Assembly: GCF_014202225.1 (NCBI RefSeq)
Contig: NZ_JACHGE010000002.1
Coordinates: forward strand, 428,636-492,635
Reading direction: 5' to 3'
From: Algibacter amylolyticus
GTDB taxonomy: Bacteria > Bacteroidota > Bacteroidia > Flavobacteriales > Flavobacteriaceae
DNA length: 64,000 bases
Part shown: positions 1 through 9,157 of the stretch, piece by piece
Position numbering within the stretch: the first letter of the stretch is position 1
How the letters are laid out: each line of letters starts with the position of its first letter
Made by a program: the position numbers and the translations under genes
Notes under the pieces: model-generated
The model's database searches: none
Told to the model about the DNA's origin: nothing
Seen by the model: only the letters and a program-made list of their open reading frames with translations

Positions 1-313
1 CAAGTTCGTACAACGTACCTATAACTAAGTTTTCAATGCCAATTAAGTCTTCGTAATTTAAAACAAAACTAACTTGAGGGGCTGGAGTTTCCAAAAGCAT
101 GAGCTGTTCTTGATTGTTGCTATTACAAGTAGTAATTAGTTTATTTATAGAGGTTTCAATATGTTGTAAAAAAGTGAGTAATTCTAAGGCTGTAAAATGC
201 AATGCAGTATTATTAAAAACTAAATTTATTTTTTTGTAATCCTCTACGGCACAGCGCTTCCACCAAAAAACTAAACCAAAATCATTTCTATATATTACTG
301 TAATATCGTCCAT
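1..313 (-). CDS. Small conserved flavobacterial protein, C-terminus outside window
   Basis: An open frame reads leftward from an ATG at 311-313 to the window edge, giving 104 codons without a stop. The protein starts MDDITVIYRN and has a WWKRCAV segment. I recognise no catalytic motif, signal peptide or membrane segment, so it is probably cytosolic. It begins 2 nt after the stop of the next small gene (316-672), which itself follows the PepSY reductase gene by 11 nt, so all three probably share one transcript. The function is unknown. The proximity suggests an accessory role in the same redox or metal process, but that rests on position alone. Confidence 0.6.
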   Translation of the reverse strand, partial: MDDITVIYRNDFGLVFWWKRCAVEDYKKINLVFNNTALHFTALELLTFLQHIETSINKLITTCNSNNQEQLMLLETPAPQVSFVLNYEDLIGIENLVIGTLYEL

Positions 314-315
314 GT

Positions 316-672
316 TTAATTTAAAATTAGCGTATAATCGATATCTTTTGTTGTTAAGTTCTTAGTAAAAACATGGTTTGAAGTAGTGGAAAAAAGGTGT
401 TTTAGTTCTAAAATTTCTTGGCTATTAAACATTAAAACTAGATTGTGCTGCATGGATGGAATAGGGATTTTACGTTTTACTCTAGCCGATGCATATTTAA
501 TTTGCCAGTATTCAATTTCTAGATCTAGTATATAAGATTTAAATTGTTTAAACTCTTTTTTGTTAAGCTCCAGGTATATATTATTAAATTCTAAATGATA
601 AATTTCACATTGGCAACACAGGTATAATTCGCCGCTTTTTACTTTAGAAAGTACTTTTATTTTGGTACACAT
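316..672 (-). CDS. Small cysteine-containing protein, DUF6686-like
   Basis: This 118-residue protein has no signal peptide. Near its N-terminus lies a cysteine cluster C-C-x-C (residues 19-22) followed by an HLEF segment, and Cys2 is also present. This could bind a metal or iron-sulfur cluster, though there are too few cysteines for a classical cluster. The pattern resembles a short conserved protein of Flavobacteriia that I remember as DUF6686; I am unsure of the number. It sits 11 nt downstream of the PepSY-flavodoxin reductase gene and 2 nt upstream of another small gene, so co-transcription is likely. No function can be assigned from sequence. Confidence 0.7.
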   Translation of the reverse strand: MCTKIKVLSKVKSGELYLCCQCEIYHLEFNNIYLELNKKEFKQFKSYILDLEIEYWQIKYASARVKRKIPIPSMQHNLVLMFNSQEILELKHLFSTTSNHVFTKNLTTKDIDYTLILN

Positions 673-683
673 GGTCTTAAATT

Positions 684-2870
684 TTAGTAGCAGTCTGTTT
701 TTATTAAATTCATGTTTAACGGGGCATTAAGCTTGTTTTTGGATATGTTTTCTAGGGTTTTTAAAACACCATTTTGCATAGCTACAGAACCGCAAATCAT
801 TATAGTTCCTTTGTTTTTTAAAACTCTAGATAGTAACTCTTCTTTTTCCATTAATGCATTTTGAACATATTTTTTCTGACTTTCGCCTTGCGAGAAACTT
901 AAATAAACACCAGATAATCTTTTATTATAAAAGGCATCGTCAATATGTTTGGAGTACATCTTGTATGACTCATTTGTGCGTCCGCCCCAAAACAGGTAGT
1001 TTTTAGAATGTTTTAGGTTATCATCGCTAATCATTCCTAAAAAAGGAGCAATTCCGGTACCGTTGGAAATCATAATTACTTCTTTTGCCGATTTTGGAAA
1101 ATGAAAGTCTTTATTCTGTTCTATAGCAGCAGGTAACATATCGTTTAGTTTTAAATCGTTTAAATAGTTTGAGCATATTCCAAACTCATGTTTTTTAATA
1201 CTTAAAAGAATGTTTTTTCCAATTTTGCCAATAGAGTATTGCCTAGGTACTTCGTTTTCTTTGGGTATAATAGAGAGTAAATCGCCAGACCGAAAAGCTC
1301 TTTTCTTAATGGGTTGTAATTCTAGTAAAAATGAATTATCGCTATTTATGGTCGTGCGTTTTACTACTTTAAAAGAGCTTAGTTTTTTTTTGTTATGATT
1401 TGTTGGAGGCTCATTAACATTGAGTGTTAGATTTTTTGTTTTACCCCAGGAATCTATCCAGTTTTTAAACTCGGTAAACGATTGATTGTTAATTTTATGA
1501 AGCGCCATACAAGGCATGTATTTTTGGTGTTGTTGTAACATAGAATCTACCAAAATGGCATATTTGCAAAAGCCTTTATAGGCCAACGAGCCAAACCCAA
1601 CAACTGCATATTTTAAGTTGTTTTGTTGCGGAGTAGTTTGTACGAGTTTTTCAAAATACTTGGCATTAACAGGAGGATCGCCTTCGCCGTAAGTGGAGGT
1701 AAGGACAACAAGGTGAGTTGCTTTTTTATAAGTAGTATATTGGTTTAATTCTGAGATGTAAACCGATTTTCCTTCGGCAATTAAAGCGTTTAGTAATAAT
1801 TTAGCAAAGCCAAAAGTACTGCCTGTTTCCGAGCCAACAAGTATAATGTATTCGGCAGCATCTTTATTAAACTTATTTTTAATGTTTACAGCATTACGTT
1901 TTCGGTTTAAGGTCATAGAAAACCCAGAGAAAACAAAAAACAATATACTAATACTTGTTAATAGTAAAACAAAAGACCATATAATGGAGCCTTCTCCCGT
2001 ATGTAAAAATAAACTCCAACTCGTAGCAAGAGTTATAAAACCATCCGATTTCTCACTTACTATTTTTCCGTTATACTGGTTTACATAGACTTCTTTATCA
2101 TGTAATTTTAAAATAAAGTAATCTTCAATATCATTAGAAAAAGGAAACTCAATACGTTTTATATCACCTAAGGTTAAGCTGTTAAAAATATTCGAATCCG
2201 TAATTTTAGATGGGGTAGAAGTTGTAGTTTTTGTTTTAACGTGTTTGTGTTTTGTTTCGGGTAATAACGAAAACCTTTCCAAGGACAAAAACACGCCCGT
2301 AATGGTAATTATAATTATTGGTATTAAGGTGTATTTACCTAGTATTACATGGTAGTATTGGTTAAAATCTTCTTTAATAGTTTTGGCAAAAAAAGCTTTA
2401 ATACTACCTTGACGTTTTATTATTAAAATAATACCTGTAACCGCCATTAAAAACAGCAAAAAGGATACAATGCCAACAATGGCACGCCCTGTAGATTTTA
2501 AAAATAGAGATCTGTGTAAATTTGTTGCAAAACTAAATATGGGGGCTTTTTCAATAATATCTCCCGTTTTTTTTGCGGTAAACGGATCGATATAAAAGGT
2601 TTCGCTTTCGCCTTGTTTTGTAACTACCGAAGCGGAAATAAAATCATTTTTATCAATGTCCAAATAGATAACCTCATCGTATTCCGTTTTTAGACTTTCT
2701 AATGTTTTAGAAATACTAAGGGATTGAGCATCTTTTACAGCATAAGGTTTTAGCTGATTCGATATGGGTTCGAAAGCCAAAATAGTACCAGTTAAAGCGG
2801 CAAGAATTATAAATAAGGAAGAAGAAATAGCCAAAATAAGATGGCTAAGTCTCCATATAGAAATGGTCAT
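684..2870 (-). CDS. PepSY transmembrane protein fused to flavodoxin and ferredoxin-NADP reductase domains
   Basis: This 728-residue inner-membrane protein probably moves electrons from cytosolic NAD(P)H across the membrane. The first half has PepSY-type architecture with hydrophobic segments near residues 10-32, 130-152, 175-197 and 297-319. A flavodoxin domain follows at about 340-480, with the FMN phosphate-loop motif GSETGST near residue 346. Then comes an FAD/NAD(P) reductase module with RQYSIGK (FAD binding, about 542), SNGTGIAPF (pyridine nucleotide binding, about 600) and ICGS near the end. This layout matches proteins annotated as sulfite reductase flavoprotein-like or siderophore-iron reductases. 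The upstream DUF2271 gene carries a predicted covalent FMN site, so that protein is a plausible periplasmic electron partner. The final acceptor, perhaps ferric iron, is inferred and not shown by the sequence. Confidence 0.88.
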   Translation of the reverse strand: MTISIWRLSHLILAISSSLFIILAALTGTILAFEPISNQLKPYAVKDAQSLSISKTLESLKTEYDEVIYLDIDKNDFISASVVTKQGESETFYIDPFTAKKTGDIIEKAPIFSFATNLHRSLFLKSTGRAIVGIVSFLLFLMAVTGIILIIKRQGSIKAFFAKTIKEDFNQYYHVILGKYTLIPIIIITITGVFLSLERFSLLPETKHKHVKTKTTTSTPSKITDSNIFNSLTLGDIKRIEFPFSNDIEDYFILKLHDKEVYVNQYNGKIVSEKSDGFITLATSWSLFLHTGEGSIIWSFVLLLTSISILFFVFSGFSMTLNRKRNAVNIKNKFNKDAAEYIILVGSETGSTFGFAKLLLNALIAEGKSVYISELNQYTTYKKATHLVVLTSTYGEGDPPVNAKYFEKLVQTTPQQNNLKYAVVGFGSLAYKGFCKYAILVDSMLQQHQKYMPCMALHKINNQSFTEFKNWIDSWGKTKNLTLNVNEPPTNHNKKKLSSFKVVKRTTINSDNSFLLELQPIKKRAFRSGDLLSIIPKENEVPRQYSIGKIGKNILLSIKKHEFGICSNYLNDLKLNDMLPAAIEQNKDFHFPKSAKEVIMISNGTGIAPFLGMISDDNLKHSKNYLFWGGRTNESYKMYSKHIDDAFYNKRLSGVYLSFSQGESQKKYVQNALMEKEELLSRVLKNKGTIMICGSVAMQNGVLKTLENISKNKLNAPLNMNLIKTDCY

Positions 2871-2943
2871 TGGTGCAAAATTTGTAGCGCATTTAACGAG
2901 GTTTCATTAAAACGTTTTATTTGATTGTTGCTATAAGATTTAT

Positions 2944-2983
2944 AATGTCTTGTCTTAACTGCGTTTGGATAAGACAAGACATT
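2944..2983. repeat. Perfect 14-bp inverted repeat between DUF2271 and PepSY reductase genes
   Basis: The arms AATGTCTTGTCTTA (2944-2957) and its exact reverse complement (2970-2983) flank a 12-nt loop. The hairpin lies in the 127-nt gap after the DUF2271 stop and before the PepSY reductase start. No run of T follows on the minus strand, so it is not a standard intrinsic terminator. It could be an attenuator, an RNA-stabilising hairpin or a protein-binding palindrome. Confidence 0.75.
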
Positions 2984-2997
2984 CAAGTGTTTATTTG

Positions 2998-3492
2998 TTA
3001 CTTTTGTGGCATCATTCGAACGTATCGGATGTACCCTTTGCCTTCATGTTTTAGCTTTATGTTTTCGGTAGTTAAAGGAAACTCTACATCTTTAATATAA
3101 TATTCTTTGTCTTCAACAGCGGTTTCAAAACGAAGGCTATAACCAGCATCAATTTTATCCTGGTCTATTTCAATAACATTAATGGCACGCTCGCCACCAC
3201 CAATAGTAGCGCCAGTAATGGCATCAATATCCGTTTTTGTTTTTCCGAAAAAACGCCACCATTCTGCTATATCGTGGTACCATTCATCATCATCACCTTG
3301 TACATAAAGTGTTTGTTCATAGCCCCCTTCCGGATTTATAAGCGAGATAACAACATAAGCGCCTTCACCCGAATAATTAATCATTTGCACCATACATTTA
3401 AAGGTGTTTGGCTTAGGAGAAAAGGCAAATAAAGTCACTACTAAAATGGCAAGAAACGCCATATATTTGGTCTGTTTTAATAAGGTTGTCAT
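2998..3492 (-). CDS. Exported DUF2271 protein with predicted covalent FMN site
   Basis: This 164-residue protein has an N-terminal hydrophobic signal (about residues 10-24) and should act in the periplasm. The rest matches DUF2271, with a tryptophan-rich stretch near 71-80. Residues 90-96 read DAITGAT, which fits the D-x-x-[S/T]-G-A-[S/T] motif where ApbE-type transferases attach FMN to the last threonine, here Thr96. DUF2271 is, from memory, among the domain families linked to extracytosolic flavinylation. It lies 6 nt downstream of the ankyrin gene and upstream of the PepSY reductase, which fits a chain from reductase to flavinylated carrier to a periplasmic acceptor. No apbE gene is visible in the window. 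Confidence 0.85.
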   Translation of the reverse strand: MTTLLKQTKYMAFLAILVVTLFAFSPKPNTFKCMVQMINYSGEGAYVVISLINPEGGYEQTLYVQGDDDEWYHDIAEWWRFFGKTKTDIDAITGATIGGGERAINVIEIDQDKIDAGYSLRFETAVEDKEYYIKDVEFPLTTENIKLKHEGKGYIRYVRMMPQK

Positions 3493-3498
3493 ACTAAA

Positions 3499-4992
3499 TT
3501 ATTTTAAAAAATTAATATCTATGGCGTTGGCTTTAAGAAGCTCGTTTTCTTGTGCTAAATCGTAAACAGATTCTTCAAATTCTGTTAAAGCACTTTTATT
3601 AGCACCTTTAGCAATTAGATATTTTAAAATTGAATCGTCTTTAGATTTCATGGCTGCAATATGTAGTACAGATAGCCCTTCGTTATTGGCCGCATTGATA
3701 TCAATTTTTGTTGGCTCTAAAAATTTAAGTAGCTCTAAATCTAATTTTTCAATGGCAATTTGGTATAGCGTATTATTACCTGCTTGAGTTGCTGTAAAAT
3801 CTACATTTTTGGCTTGTAGTAGTTTTGCTTTTTCATAAAAATCGACCTTATTACGCGGTCTGTAAGCGTTTACTAAATAATATGCTAAATTATTACCATT
3901 ATGATCTACAAGGTTAGCATTTGCGTTTTGTTCAAGTAAATAAGCTACTACTTCTGGTTTATTACGTTCTACGGCAAGCGTTAAAGCAGATTGCCCATCT
4001 TTGTTAACTAAATTTATATTTTTAGTTAGGTTATGCAAATGTTTTACAACCTCTAAACTATTAGCCTGAGCAGCTTTAATAAATGGAGTATTACCGTCTT
4101 TATCGGTAGCATTAGGATCTAATCCTTTGCTAATAAAATAGTCAATTACGGCGGTCTCTTTAGTGCTTCCAGCTACATTTAAAAGCGGGTTTACACCATT
4201 GGTTGTTGTTATGTTTGGATTAATACCTAGGCTTTCTAAATAGTTGTAAACTTCAATACCGTTAGAGTGTCCGCGACCACCTTGACTGGCAAAAATAAAA
4301 GCGTTACCACCGTCTTTATTTATAGTATTGTACTCAATACCTTTAGCTACAAGCTGCTTTAGCATAGCAATGTTACCAGTTTTTGCGGTGTAATTAAATA
4401 CCCCATTACCATAGTTATCTTTACTCTTTAAGCTAATACCTTTAGTTTCAAAGTAATCTACAATCTCAAAATCTGATAATTTAGGAATTAATAATAAAAG
4501 GGCATTAGCGCCATCTTTACTAGTTTCGGTTTTTACATTGGCACCGTGTGCTATAAGCGCATCATAAATTTTTGTATCCGTAACGCCCGCTGCTGCTGTG
4601 AAAATTAATGGAGAACTTCCTTTATCATCAATAATATCAACACGCGCACCAGATTCTAATAAGTGGTTTACTAACTCTAAATTGCCAGAGTAAGCCGCCC
4701 AAAAAATATAGGTTCTGCCATCGTGCGTTAATTTATTAGGGTTGTTTTCTTTAAAACTTAATAGGTATTTTACAATGTCTAAATCTGCCTTTGCAAAAAT
4801 ACTATTGGTAACAGCATCAAAACCAGAGGATGTAAGTTGGGTTGGACTGTGTCCAGCTTTAACGGTTTGTTTAACTGTTTCTAAATTTGGCTTTTTAGCC
4901 CAAAATTTTCTATCTCTTAATAGGTTGCTGTCTTGTGCTATGGCATTTAGACTACAAACTAAAAGCAATACAATTTTCACTAATTTATTCAT
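3499..4992 (-). CDS. Exported ankyrin-repeat protein
   Basis: The 497-residue product begins with a signal peptide (hydrophobic core about 6-18, then AIAQDSN), so it is probably periplasmic. Nearly all of the mature protein consists of ankyrin repeats of about 33 residues with the usual G-x-T/N-x-L-x-x-A-A pattern, for example around residues 98-130 and again at the C-terminus. Ankyrin repeats are protein-binding scaffolds, and no catalytic residues are evident. The gene is first in a minus-strand run, 6 nt before the DUF2271 gene. It may therefore serve as an assembly or docking factor for the flavin/PepSY redox proteins; that role is inferred from position. Confidence 0.85.
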   Translation of the reverse strand: MNKLVKIVLLLVCSLNAIAQDSNLLRDRKFWAKKPNLETVKQTVKAGHSPTQLTSSGFDAVTNSIFAKADLDIVKYLLSFKENNPNKLTHDGRTYIFWAAYSGNLELVNHLLESGARVDIIDDKGSSPLIFTAAAGVTDTKIYDALIAHGANVKTETSKDGANALLLLIPKLSDFEIVDYFETKGISLKSKDNYGNGVFNYTAKTGNIAMLKQLVAKGIEYNTINKDGGNAFIFASQGGRGHSNGIEVYNYLESLGINPNITTTNGVNPLLNVAGSTKETAVIDYFISKGLDPNATDKDGNTPFIKAAQANSLEVVKHLHNLTKNINLVNKDGQSALTLAVERNKPEVVAYLLEQNANANLVDHNGNNLAYYLVNAYRPRNKVDFYEKAKLLQAKNVDFTATQAGNNTLYQIAIEKLDLELLKFLEPTKIDINAANNEGLSVLHIAAMKSKDDSILKYLIAKGANKSALTEFEESVYDLAQENELLKANAIDINFLK

Positions 4993-5527
4993 GGTTTAAA
5001 ATATAAATGGTTTAATCTTTTATTTAGACTTAATAAAAATAATCTGTTATTTTTTGACAAATTTAATCAAGAATCATTCTAAATAAAAAAATTATCACTT
5101 TTATTTTTACTTTTTTTTAAGCATGATACTTTTTGCTAAAACAGAGGAGAGGTATCAAAAGGTTTCTATATGAATTAATTTTTTAGAAGTTGCTATAATT
5201 TTTTGCAACTCGAAATTTGTAAATAATTTAGGGGTATACTTCCTAACGAAAATTATATAAAAACGCAATGAGTTTATGGCTAGTAAGCAGCTAAATCGTT
5301 AATAAAAGTGCTAATTGAGTCATATGTTATAATAGATGAGATATAATTTATACAAAAAAGATAACCGACTTTATATATTTACTCTTTAAAGTTTTTTTTA
5401 ATACGCTTTAATATCTGTCAGATAGCTAACAATGAATTTAAAAACGACAGACGAAGCTAAAATTGAAGAATGCTATTTGTTAAAAGCTATAAAATATAGT
5501 ATTACAAAATAAACGGTTTATTATTTT
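4993..5527. other. Divergent intergenic region between ankyrin and cytochrome genes
   Basis: This very AT-rich 535-bp gap separates two divergent operons and should hold both promoters. I see a short AT hairpin (5035-5054), a 6-bp inverted repeat AGTTGC/GCAACT around 5188-5210, and a perfect 13-bp palindrome at 5412-5424 (listed separately). No convincing Bacteroidota -33/-7 pair, RNA gene or coding frame stands out. A 26-codon ATG frame at about 5432-5512 has no supporting features. Confidence 0.6.
5412..5424. promoter_or_regulatory. Perfect 13-bp palindrome upstream of the cytochrome gene
   Basis: TATCTG-T-CAGATA is an exact palindrome about 104 nt upstream of the ATG at 5528. Its size and place suit an operator for a dimeric regulator. 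I have no regulator to pair with it, and short palindromes do occur by chance in AT-rich DNA. Confidence 0.3.
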
Positions 5528-8500
5528 ATGAAAAACAAACTGATACTTGCTTTTGTATTCACCTTAGTTCTTTTAGGACTGCTCTTAATACCTTTTAATG
5601 GCGATTCAGAAAATACATTTATCTTTTTTCTAGGTCGGTTTCACCCCATAATTTTACACCTACCTATTGGTGCTTTAGTTGTTTTGTTTGTGCTAGAAAT
5701 TATTAATGCAAAACGACCGGAATTACATTTACATTCAGCGTGTAATATTTTGCTATGGTTTTCGGTAGTTAGTGTTCTGCTAACTGTGGTTTTAGGTTTT
5801 TTTCTGGCTTCAAGCGGACATTATAATGAAGATTTATTAAACACCCACCAATGGTTAGGATGGTTCACTGCAATAATTTGTGTGTGGCTTTTGGTTTTAC
5901 GTAATAAAAAATCTGCCGAAGCTTCAAACAAAGTCAGTAAAGCCTATAAGCTATTTCTTTTAGTAAATGTGGTTTTATTGTCTTTTGCTGGGCATTATGG
6001 AGGTTCGTTAACCCATGGAGAAGCATATTTAACTAAGTATATGCCGTCTAAAATGAAAGCGGTTCTGGGCGTTTCAAATCAAGATTCTTACCTAGCAATG
6101 AATCCAAATGATTCTACATCAGAGGCTGCTTTGTATTTTAAAAATAATATTAAACCTGTAATGCAAAAACATTGTTACGATTGTCATGGCCCTGAAAAAG
6201 AAAAGGGCGGTGTACGTTTAGATGTTTTGAATTGGGATATGATAAACGGACCAGATGCCGAAGGTTGGCATTCCGCTTTAGATATGATTAATTCTGGAGA
6301 AATGCCTCCAAAGGAAGAGCCTCAATTAAGTGATCAAGAACGACGTGATGTTGTAGATTGGATGACAACTAACTTAGAAAAAGCGGCTGCTGCAAAACAA
6401 GCTAGTAATAAAGGTGTGATGCGCAGATTAACCAAAAGGCAATACACCAATAGTTTAAACGAGTTACTTGGTGTTAACGTTAACTTTGGCGATGTTTTAC
6501 CAGACGATGGTAAATCTAAAATGGGATTTAGTAACAATGGTAGTGTACTACAAACATCTGCGTTACATATTGATTACTATCAAAAAATAGCCCGAGAGGC
6601 ATTGGATAAGGCTATTGTATTTAGAGATAAGCCAGAATCTAAAAAATATAAAGTTACTATAGGTGCTAATACAGGCGATGGTAAAACGGGTGCGCAGTAT
6701 GGTGGTTACCAAACGGCAGCCATTAATAATAAGGATTTTACTATCGATGTTTTAGACGAAAACGGTAGGCCTCTTTCTAGCGCTTCTATGACTCAAAAAG
6801 ATTCCCTTTTAGCTTTAAAAAACAAAATAGGTATTGGCATGCGCGGTTCGGCAAGTAACAGGTATAGCGTAGAAAAGGAGGGTATGTTACTATATTCTGC
6901 ATTACCAGCTAAAGAAGTGGCGCCTAAGTCGTGGCAAGGGCCTTCACCAAATTTAAAATTATTGGTTAAAGAAGATTTTCCAAGAACTGGAGACTTTGTT
7001 TTTAGAGTCCAAGCATCAAAAGGTTATCTATCTACTTCGGTTGAGCGTCTTATCGATTTAAGAAAAAAAGTACCTGCACGAACAACACCTAAAGCTATTA
7101 AAGTAGTCGCTAAGGATATTAAAAATCCTAAAGGCTTTGTTTTAAAAGACAAACGCTGGTTAATGCCAGATAACGTTGCAAATAATGTAAAAACTAAGTT
7201 TGTGTATAAGGTGCCAAAATCGGGAATCTATCAGGTAGATTTGGTGCATCCTTATAGCTCTGAAGATGCTATGCCATCGTACCAAATTAGTCTTTTTGGA
7301 GGTAGTAAAGAAGGGCGCGTAAGTGAGCGCTTGTACATGGATAAAAGCTTAGAAACCGCAGATCAAGTAGTTACTCCAGTTACTTTAGCGTATTTATCTA
7401 AAGGAACACATAAAGGATATATTGGTGGTAAATTTTTTGTTGGCTTTAGCCATATTGTACTAACACCACTAGCAGAAAACGATCCTTTACCGCAAATATT
7501 AGAGCAAGAAGCTAAATTAAATAGTCAGCAATATGCCGGTGTTAATCCATCCATTCAGGTGTTTTCGGGCACACGAACAGACGATGGTATGGATTATAAA
7601 ACCTTTGATGAATGTGTGGAAGTTAACGTCCCGTTTGGGGAATTAAAAACCTACGAGTTTAAAGGACGATTAGAAAATTTACCCATTCCTTTAGCAGGAA
7701 ATCAAGTAAGTGGAGACCTTGCAAACATGTTAACCGTAGGACTTTGGAATAATCATTTGGTTAAAGAAAATAGTCTTACAGGTCCGCCTTTGCTTATTAA
7801 ATCGGTTGAGTTTGAAGCACCTTACCATCCCGTTTGGCCTCCAAATAGCCATACCGAAATCTTTTTCGATTCGTCTAATAAATCAGATAAAGAAGTCTAT
7901 ACAAAAGAAGTTTTAAATCGTTTTATGACTAAAGCTTTTAGAAGATCTGTTACCGCAGAAGAACTAAATAGGTATGTCGATTTTTGGAACAGTATAAAAC
8001 ATGATTTCGACCGTTATGAAGACGGCGTTAAAGAGGTTTTGGTGGCCGTTTTATGTTCGCCTAATTTTATTTACTTGTTTGAGCCTGAAGATTCTAATTC
8101 ACCAGACAACAAAAAGTCTGAAGATGAATTTTTCCTAGCCTCGCAATTGGCTTATTTTTTATGGAATTCGCCTCCCGATGAAACCTTAACGGCCTTGGCT
8201 GCCGAAGGCGATTTACATGATGAATTACCCGAGCAAATTGAACGTATGGTAAACGACTCTAAAATAGCGCGAATGATTCATTCTTTTACTTACGAATGGT
8301 TGCGATTAGATAGACATAAAACCATGGATACCGATGTAAATGAATATAAAGATTACACTAGGTTTGTTAAAGAAGACATGGCCAATGAAACCTACGAGTT
8401 TATTAGTTATGTACTTAAAAATAACATGAGTATTCTCAATTTTATAGACTCAGATTTTGCTATGCTGAATCAAAATTTAGCAGAGTTTTATGGGGTTGAA

Positions 8501-9157
8501 GGGGTTAAAGGTCATCAGTTTCGTCCTGTGGAGTTACCTAAGGATTTAAACAGAGGCGGTTTGCTTTCTCAAGGGGCGTTTTTAAATGGCCATTCCGATG
8601 GTGTTCAGGCGCATCCTATTAAGCGTGCCGTTTGGTTAAAAGAAAAAATATTGGGCGATACGCCACCGCCACCGCCGCCAAATGTGCCAGAGCTGGATAC
8701 AGACACTCCGGGGTTTGAAGACATGACCTTAAAAGAACAACTGTTTTTACACCGTAATAAAGCAGCGTGTTTGGATTGCCATAAAAAAATAGATCCTTAT
8801 GGTGTTGTTTTTGAAAATTACGATGCCGTTGGTAGGTATCAATTAACATCAAAAGGTAAACCTATCGATACAAAATCTCAACTACCAGATGGCACCGAAG
8901 TTGAAGGCGTGCAAGGAATAAAGGATTATATCATTAGAATGAAAAAGGAAGAGTTTACAAAATCCTTAGTCGAGCATCTTTACGCATACGCCTTAGGACG
9001 CGATGTAAGTTTTGCCGATCAAAAAGAAATAAATAAAATAGTTGAAAACGTTATAGAAGACGATTTCCGTTTTCAAACTGTAATAGAACAAATCGTTTTA
9101 AGTTCTTCATTTTACAAAAAAGAACGGAATTGGTTTAATAAAATATTTGGATCATGA
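5528..9157 (+). CDS. Membrane protein with two haem-c motifs and planctomycete-type PSCyt1/DUF1587/1595/1592/1588/1585 domains
   Basis: This large protein (1209 residues) is anchored by about five N-terminal helices (residues 4-155, DUF2231-like), with the remainder in the periplasm. A first haem-c site, C216-Y-D-C219-H220, lies in a PSCyt1-type domain. DUF1587 (about 298-365, RRLTKRQYTNSLNELLG) and a beta-rich middle follow, then DUF1595 (about 785-850), DUF1592 (about 860-990) and DUF1588 (about 1005-1105) with a second haem site C1081-L-D-C1084-H1085, and a C-terminal DUF1585. These domains were first defined in Planctomycetes and are usually paired with DUF1552 proteins, as here: the next gene overlaps by ATGA. 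The protein probably transfers electrons, perhaps from carbohydrate oxidation, but its biochemistry is not established. It opens a long plus-strand run. Confidence 0.88.
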   Translation: MKNKLILAFVFTLVLLGLLLIPFNGDSENTFIFFLGRFHPIILHLPIGALVVLFVLEIINAKRPELHLHSACNILLWFSVVSVLLTVVLGFFLASSGHYNEDLLNTHQWLGWFTAIICVWLLVLRNKKSAEASNKVSKAYKLFLLVNVVLLSFAGHYGGSLTHGEAYLTKYMPSKMKAVLGVSNQDSYLAMNPNDSTSEAALYFKNNIKPVMQKHCYDCHGPEKEKGGVRLDVLNWDMINGPDAEGWHSALDMINSGEMPPKEEPQLSDQERRDVVDWMTTNLEKAAAAKQASNKGVMRRLTKRQYTNSLNELLGVNVNFGDVLPDDGKSKMGFSNNGSVLQTSALHIDYYQKIAREALDKAIVFRDKPESKKYKVTIGANTGDGKTGAQYGGYQTAAINNKDFTIDVLDENGRPLSSASMTQKDSLLALKNKIGIGMRGSASNRYSVEKEGMLLYSALPAKEVAPKSWQGPSPNLKLLVKEDFPRTGDFVFRVQASKGYLSTSVERLIDLRKKVPARTTPKAIKVVAKDIKNPKGFVLKDKRWLMPDNVANNVKTKFVYKVPKSGIYQVDLVHPYSSEDAMPSYQISLFGGSKEGRVSERLYMDKSLETADQVVTPVTLAYLSKGTHKGYIGGKFFVGFSHIVLTPLAENDPLPQILEQEAKLNSQQYAGVNPSIQVFSGTRTDDGMDYKTFDECVEVNVPFGELKTYEFKGRLENLPIPLAGNQVSGDLANMLTVGLWNNHLVKENSLTGPPLLIKSVEFEAPYHPVWPPNSHTEIFFDSSNKSDKEVYTKEVLNRFMTKAFRRSVTAEELNRYVDFWNSIKHDFDRYEDGVKEVLVAVLCSPNFIYLFEPEDSNSPDNKKSEDEFFLASQLAYFLWNSPPDETLTALAAEGDLHDELPEQIERMVNDSKIARMIHSFTYEWLRLDRHKTMDTDVNEYKDYTRFVKEDMANETYEFISYVLKNNMSILNFIDSDFAMLNQNLAEFYGVEGVKGHQFRPVELPKDLNRGGLLSQGAFLNGHSDGVQAHPIKRAVWLKEKILGDTPPPPPPNVPELDTDTPGFEDMTLKEQLFLHRNKAACLDCHKKIDPYGVVFENYDAVGRYQLTSKGKPIDTKSQLPDGTEVEGVQGIKDYIIRMKKEEFTKSLVEHLYAYALGRDVSFADQKEINKIVENVIEDDFRFQTVIEQIVLSSSFYKKERNWFNKIFGS

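Follow-up and report, generated by a model that had tools for sequence, protein, structure and literature searches.

A probable flavin-based ferric reductase operon with a near-obligate exported ankyrin-repeat partner in Algibacter amylolyticus

Among described extracytosolic electron-transfer systems, the closest to the one considered here are the flavinylated systems termed 'PepSY-like' (Meheust et al. 2021; PMC8238504), which likewise combine a PepSY_TM protein with a DUF2271 protein carrying an [ST]GA[ST] motif, and for which a role in iron reduction and assimilation was proposed. The DUF2271 protein of Amantichitinum ursilacus is flavinylated by ApbE, and a Thr to Ala replacement abolishes the modification (PMC8238504). 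Two further points of likeness are found in XusABC of Bacteroides (PMC13142918), with its TonB receptor, XusB/DUF4374 surface lipoprotein and PepSY inner-membrane reductase, and in FoxB (7abw) and HiuB, PepSY-type membrane proteins with heme-ligating histidines that are tied to siderophore iron. Here we analyze a window of 64,000 nucleotides from Algibacter amylolyticus (Flavobacteriaceae; assembly GCF_014202225.1, contig NZ_JACHGE010000002.1, positions 428,636 to 492,635), in which a five-gene operon joins a PepSY_TM fusion and a DUF2271 protein to an exported ankyrin-repeat protein and two small proteins of the DUF6686 type. We consider it likely that this operon, its ankyrin partner included, is a Fur-repressed, flavin-based inner-membrane ferric reductase.

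All five genes lie on the reverse strand. The first encodes the exported ankyrin-repeat protein of 497 aminoacids (3499..4992; Ank_2, 159.3 bits by Pfam; signal-peptide-like start by eye), the second a DUF2271 protein of 164 aminoacids (2998..3492; PF10029, 139.9 bits), a predicted substrate of ApbE, and the third a fusion of PepSY_TM, flavodoxin and NAD(P)H reductase domains of 728 aminoacids (684..2870). The predicted flavin mononucleotide (FMN) attachment motif DAITGAT spans D90-T96 of the DUF2271 protein (3205..3225), with Thr96 as the predicted acceptor. The gaps from the ankyrin gene to the last small gene are 6, 127, 11 and 2 bp. Open reading frames, Pfam matches and the position of the motif confirm the gene content given by the original prediction, which had been made from the sequence alone; the span it assigned to the module, 684-4992, covers the ankyrin, DUF2271 and fusion genes and omits the two small genes that it also named.

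The DUF2271 gene of the operon is the sole match to this family found in the genome. All 48 aligned DUF2271 proteins have T or S at position 96, and 41 of them keep [ST]GA[ST]; given this conservation, the agreement of DAITGAT with the predicted attachment motif exceeds chance. In locus L060 the sequence SAKTGAS replaces DAITGAT, though both ankyrin and PepSY genes are present. A single ApbE match is found in the genome (L004:9127-10101, contig C10), outside the operon; by eye its start resembles that of a lipoprotein, and a run of Nqr-type genes, one of them for an FMN_bind protein, lies some 3 kb away. Comparison of the DUF2271 protein with solved structures gave three matches with expectation values (E) of 0.46 or worse, none of them credible.

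The fusion protein scores 124.4 bits against PepSY_TM (PF03929; cut-off 28.8), 60.1 against Flavodoxin_1 and 41.6 against NAD_binding_1, and its C-terminal half resembles NADPH-reductase flavoproteins. Four histidines (His10, His119, His174 and His290) are each at least 90% conserved among 45 sequences. When the four hydrophobic segments are oriented with the Lys/Arg-rich stretches in the cytosol, two of these histidines fall near each membrane face, which fits the expectation if two bis-His hemes stack across the membrane. The domain content supports the proposal, made in the original prediction, of a flavin-based transmembrane electron-transfer module, a kind that has already been described (PMC8238504).

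The association of the ankyrin protein with DUF2271 was scored in a family sample of 149 genomes, where ankyrin orthologs were accepted at E 1e-30 or better, in a phylum sample of 345 genomes, and in 79 loci of named relatives together with a second set of 47 loci, DUF2271 being called in each and 3 of 129 loci dropped. The 79 named loci were scored from 80 that had been retrieved as the best of 347, and close relatives are therefore favored among them. An ankyrin ortholog is present in 44 family genomes and DUF2271 over the cut-off in 48; both occur in 43, ankyrin only in 1, DUF2271 only in 5 and neither in 100 (Fisher p 1.3e-30, uncorrected for kinship between genomes, as is the phylum test below), and two further genomes have DUF2271 matches under the cut-off. 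The lone genome with ankyrin and no DUF2271 (G015) is 84% complete and its ankyrin piece lies at a contig end. The phylum sample has 27 genomes with both, none with ankyrin only, 2 with DUF2271 only and 316 with neither (Fisher p 3.8e-38), and 15 more in which DUF2271 matches lie under the cut-off and no ankyrin match is found. By coordinates, the two genes are adjacent on one contig in 26 of the 27 phylum genomes (in G396 they are on different contigs), and the ankyrin gene stands directly upstream of DUF2271 in 79/79 named loci and 42/47 of the second set. The order ankyrin-DUF2271-PepSY is widely kept, both among the family genomes and at the named loci; the lack of a conserved neighborhood, which would have refuted the original prediction, was not observed.

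The DUF2271 genomes that lack ankyrin are informative in themselves. Both such phylum genomes (G293, G332), and likewise G110 of the family sample, carry an ApbE-DUF2271 fusion beside a short PepSY_TM_like_2 protein; the other four family genomes with DUF2271 and no ankyrin are G051, G023, G065 and G099. Based on these patterns of co-occurrence, two architectures can be distinguished, viz., an ApbE-DUF2271 fusion without ankyrin and a free DUF2271 nearly always with ankyrin, the latter mostly including the big PepSY fusion. The ankyrin protein is no bystander; it is a new, near-obligate companion of DUF2271. This standing is supported by co-occurrence, and the protein may take part in the electron chain.

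An AlphaFold2 model of the ankyrin protein forms a continuous solenoid of 13 helix-pair repeats with a mean predicted local distance difference test (pLDDT) score of 93.4. Among 115 distinct sequences, the inner helix of repeat 2 is the most conserved of the tabulated fingers and helices (information 4.16 against a mean of 2.42), the most conserved residues being W31, W98, R93, R240 and H90, and this patch may be a binding face. The top listed matches of a fold search are designed and natural ankyrin-repeat proteins, which confirms the fold and gives no function. An NCBIfam assignment as a Dot/Icm effector was rejected, the best score being 85.8 bits against a cut-off of 600 bits; such matches reflect shared repeats. 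Literature searches gave no published role for ankyrin in systems of this kind among the matches listed.

Upstream of the ankyrin gene, on the same strand, lie two Fur-box-like palindromes. The first, TTATTTAGAATGATTCTTGATTA (5064..5086), has 0 mismatches to a 23-base pattern and its core is exact at 5070-5083; the second (5020..5042), closer to the start codon, has 3 mismatches on either strand and is weak alone. Orthologous operons often have a palindrome near TTATTTAGAATnATTCTAAATAA ahead of them: among 47 upstream regions (46 loci and the window; L042 was dropped for its short upstream region, L056 and L078 were excluded), 24 are within 1 mismatch of AGAATNATTCT against 1.8 expected from shuffling and 23 have at least 2 mismatches, and a few of the best matches (e.g. 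L036, L046, L068) lie elsewhere in the upstream region and may be due to chance. The genome has 8 sites that depart from the long pattern at no more than 2 positions, of which 6, that of the operon included, stand beside iron, heme or respiratory genes, a tally made without a control count; the neighbors are hemA and an AraC-type gene, nqrA, a TonB receptor, a DUF4856-imelysin-HTTM-receptor operon, and sdhC. The seventh site adjoins a multiheme cytochrome gene and another lies between genes for a P450 and an Fe-S protein, and sites with 3 mismatches are found near feoB and ferritin. One Fur-family gene was found in the genome. The Fur box predicted for Riemerella anatipestifer, ATTTAGAATTATTCTAAAT, for which gel shifts on chosen promoters are reported (PMC5609570), shares 16 of 19 positions, counted by hand, with the better palindrome of the window.

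Expression data under iron limitation, which had been suggested as a check on the module, are in print for a Riemerella operon of matching gene order and names (PMC5429918). In R. anatipestifer CH-1, B739_0173-0177 are up under iron limitation, with log2 values of 3.31, 3.64, 2.41, 3.06 and 1.05, and are named TonB receptor, hypothetical, ankyrin, predicted periplasmic protein and nitric oxide synthase, respectively (PMC5429918); Fur binds and represses at B739_0173 (PMC7976709). By order and names, these genes fit a receptor, lipoprotein, ankyrin, DUF2271 and fusion as in locus L063. In the accounts drawn on here the ankyrin is left undiscussed, both in that Riemerella study, where it is a row of a table (PMC5429918), and for a 19 kb iron-responsive region of Flavobacterium psychrophilum that touches the neighborhood (PMC9331221). 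In other phyla, a PepSY-DUF2271-DUF4198 locus of Caulobacter is up when iron uptake is impaired by mutation, and its disruption by insertion reduces fitness in ethylenediaminetetraacetic acid (PMC12004947); DUF2271-DUF4198 pairs of Alteromonas are also linked to iron (PMC7190382). The operator and these parallels suggest that the operon is probably switched on by iron starvation.

The source of the iron is judged here from the neighboring genes, which come in sets. One, consisting of DUF6607, a divergent receptor of about 710 aminoacids and HmuY, is found in 76, 44 and 43 of the 79 named loci, respectively, and speaks for an alternative in which the module works on heme instead of siderophore iron, reducing heme iron or helping to release or move periplasmic heme, with the divergent TonB receptor-HmuY locus and its DUF6607 as the true partner; the other perfect operator of the genome, between an AraC-type gene and hemA, points the same way. 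A different set, a receptor of about 805 aminoacids mostly accompanied by a XusB-like lipoprotein of about 458 aminoacids, is found in 10 and 9 of the 47 second-set loci and in 1/79 and 1/79 of the named loci, and speaks against a dedication to heme; L055 and L147 combine both sets. Third, a gene of 804-817 aminoacids, unlabelled by the profiles, stands directly upstream of ankyrin in 14 named loci and 1 second-set locus, and all five of these that were scanned are TonB receptors. The module is kept in A. amylolyticus, though DUF6607 and HmuY gave no match in its genome; the same searches matched no control genome, and absence is the likely reading. On contig C1 of this genome, under two Fur-box-like sites, are an unlinked receptor and lipoprotein that share 72% and 79% identity, respectively, with the pair immediately upstream of ankyrin in L063. 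A profile of 10 lipoprotein sequences matches XusB (9hqe) with E 1.3e-6, and Pfam DUF4374 is under its cut-off for the L063 lipoprotein and not listed for that of this genome. Therefore, siderophore iron is favored and heme, an unlikely alternative on our estimate, is its chief rival.

Taken together, the ferric reductase that we favor would work as follows. Cytosolic NAD(P)H would reduce the flavodoxin-reductase part of the fusion, as its domains suggest, and electrons would cross the membrane via two b-hemes on the four conserved histidines, by analogy with FoxB-like proteins. They would then reach an FMN bound covalently to Thr96 of the DUF2271 protein in the periplasm, presumably attached by the ApbE encoded near nqr, and the reduced DUF2271, or the PepSY protein itself, would reduce Fe(III) delivered via TonB receptors. 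Judging from the neighbors, the iron source in this organism would most likely be (xeno)siderophores captured with the XusB-like lipoprotein, and in many relatives iron perhaps comes from heme systems. The ankyrin solenoid would be a periplasmic partner dedicated to this system and would most likely serve as a docking scaffold that brings DUF2271 together with the PepSY protein or with the incoming iron complex. A narrower version, in which the 13-repeat periplasmic solenoid is a new kind of electron-transfer scaffold that holds the flavinylated DUF2271 protein by the HDGRTYIFWAAY face conserved in repeat 2 and carries it to TonB-delivered iron complexes, is in our view rather improbable as specified; if true, the flavoprotein on which electrons leave the inner membrane would be guided and would not diffuse freely.

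Two other explanations concern the ankyrin protein in particular. In other bacteria, the periplasmic AnkB is encoded beside catalase, and exported ankyrin proteins are tied to peroxide resistance, so that the module could be imagined as periplasmic redox protection, for example against peroxide, with the ankyrin acting like AnkB. The context of receptor, lipoprotein and Fur box indicates iron uptake instead, no catalase or peroxidase model is listed for the proteins of the operon, and we regard this explanation as very unlikely. We hold it to be just as remote that the ankyrin gene is a passenger in the operon, outside the electron chain. What speaks for it is L059, from a genome (G051) that is 88% complete, in which DUF6607-DUF2271-PepSY-DUF6686a are kept and ankyrin is missing; ankyrin is therefore not strictly obligatory. 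Against it stand the presence of DUF2271 in 43/44 family and 27/27 phylum genomes that have ankyrin, the short distance between the two genes and the strong conservation of the repeat 2 patch.

Like the intact locus without ankyrin, several other observations weigh against the ferric reductase with its ankyrin partner. GET or GPT stands in place of [ST]GA[ST] in 7/48 DUF2271 proteins (L061, L073, L075, L076, L079, L081, L082). DUF2271 occurs without PepSY or ankyrin in L043 (G023) and L073, with a shorter PepSY protein and no ankyrin in L081 (G065) and L082 (G099), and with ankyrin and no PepSY in L080, and the ankyrin absences of the phylum sample are less sure because at most 4 candidates were scored per genome. 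The profile match of the PepSY part to FoxB 7abw is weak and partial (E 0.005, residues 10-113 only), and the lipoprotein as a single query found neither XusB nor any Pfam family. Genome-wide matches to the operator at 3 mismatches number 60 against 45 in the control, which is not clearly above it; a different Fur box, GATAATGATAATCATTATC, has been named for the B739_0173 promoter (PMC7976709). A PepSY gene, possibly the counterpart of the present one, falls in a Bizionia mliR mutant (PMC9478572), so that the regulator may be one other than Fur. The putative orthology with Riemerella is one of gene order and names, not of sequence, and the authors of that expression study state that cell density differed between samples and may have affected expression (PMC5429918). 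Finally, the evidence for this operon consists of its gene content and co-occurrence, the conserved motif and histidines, the Fur-box-like operators and the related receptor-lipoprotein pair; flavinylation, heme binding, iron reduction, control by Fur and the binding partners of the ankyrin are predictions.

The two small proteins have a weaker link to the module. DUF6686 protein a (316..672, reverse strand; 118 aminoacids) matches PF20391 with 149.3 bits (cut-off 23.9), and the DUF6686-like protein b (1..313, reverse strand) has its 3' end beyond the window; complete, it has 124 aminoacids in adjoining DNA (L003), and it scores 19.9 bits as a partial and 18.2 bits as a complete sequence, under the same cut-off. 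A transporter gene on the opposite strand follows it in the adjoining DNA. Residues C2 and C19-x2-C22 are common to most relatives of protein a in the alignment, and it is possibly a metal or redox accessory. Its AlphaFold2 model has a mean pLDDT of 78.6 and gave no Foldseek match at E 0.001; likeness to 2it9 (VIA Z 7.7) or PURA (7.2) is possibly only a common arrangement and no function was drawn from it. Protein a is found in 10/47 second-set and 29/79 named DUF2271 loci, and b in 7 and 12. In the family sample, DUF6686 is present in 26/149 genomes, in 23 over the cut-off, and 11 of those 23 have it beside DUF2271 by coordinates. With weak or broken matches set aside, ten DUF6686 places away from DUF2271 were examined, and 6 of these have iron or heme uptake genes nearby: imelysin and HTTM genes in L196, L199 and L205, with a TonB receptor also in L196 and L205, and a receptor, HmuY or DUF6607 by profiles in L198, L202 and L203. 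The other four (L197, L200, L201, L204) had none nearby, whether judged with those profiles or by eye. DUF6686 proteins thus look like general companions of iron loci, and the suggestion that the small proteins are parts of the electron chain is less supported, as they are patchy in DUF2271 loci and occur at other iron loci. A literature search found no paper on DUF6607 or DUF6686.

The surroundings of the operon, and other operator-like sites of the genome, show several further features. A divergent gene upstream (5528-9157) encodes 1209 aminoacids with DUF2231, PSCyt1 and PSD2-5 domains, planctomycete-type cytochrome domains among them, and occupies the place held by DUF6607 in most named relatives; DUF6607 itself (about 301 aminoacids in L068:7504-8409) has a signal-peptide-like start by eye and lies upstream of ankyrin in most relatives. 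The three best named DUF2271 relatives are all from Algibacter (A. pectinivorans 85%, A. lectus 79%, and A. pacificus 88% over a shorter stretch), and the A. pectinivorans locus (L116) has the identical five-gene order, with DUF6607 likewise absent alongside. The second perfect operator of the genome (C1:99052-99074; L089, L095) lies at the start of the AraC-family gene, upstream of hemA and surrounded by further heme-synthesis genes by eye, and heme synthesis may share the regulator of the operon. A Fur-box-like site with one mismatch (C10:169569-169591; L097) has nqrA on one side and a gene for a type 9 secretion plug on the other and suggests that the sodium pump is under iron control. Another, with two mismatches (C1:631035-631057; L099), is flanked by genes for a multiheme cytochrome c and a SPOR-domain protein. 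Two Fur-box-like sites stand upstream of a row of DUF4856, imelysin, HTTM/vitamin-K gamma-carboxylase-like and TonB receptor genes (L207; C8:24000-36000), and a gene set resembling this row adjoins DUF6686 in L196.

That flavinylated proteins reduce iron in the periplasm has been inferred widely and put to the test little. To this question the variant found in Bacteroidota brings a near-obligate ankyrin partner, a Fur-box-like operator and a testable receptor-lipoprotein pair, and offers a compact genetic system for asking how electrons reach periplasmic siderophore or heme iron and what task the exported ankyrin has.

A comparison with the systems introduced above shows what is shared and what is added. 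No fused flavodoxin-reductase and no DUF2271 partner are named for FoxB or HiuB in the accounts drawn on here. The ApbE-DUF2271 fusion loci (L078, L209, L210) also have DUF2271 beside a PepSY-type protein, in the same phylum and once in the same family, and differ in that ApbE is fused to DUF2271, the PepSY_TM_like_2 protein has only about 196-226 aminoacids, and no ankyrin ortholog was found in those genomes. In contrast to XusABC, the receptor-lipoprotein pair is unlinked here (it is linked in some relatives), the PepSY protein is fused to flavodoxin and reductase domains, and DUF2271 and ankyrin are added; the words 'ankyrin' and 'flavin' do not occur in the main text of the XusABC paper (PMC13142918). 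In the PepSY-like clusters, apbE is frequent and not required (PMC8238504), and in this genome it sits elsewhere; DUF4198 is frequent there as well, and no DUF4198 match is listed for the proteins of this operon. A subset of the PepSY proteins in those clusters bears a NAD-binding domain (PMC8238504), as does the fusion described here. Thus, by its PepSY_TM protein, its DUF2271 motif and an ApbE in the genome, the predicted electron-transfer core is of the known 'PepSY-like' flavinylation kind (PMC8238504), in whose main text 'ankyrin' has 0 occurrences, and the exported ankyrin in a fixed place is the feature that sets this operon apart.

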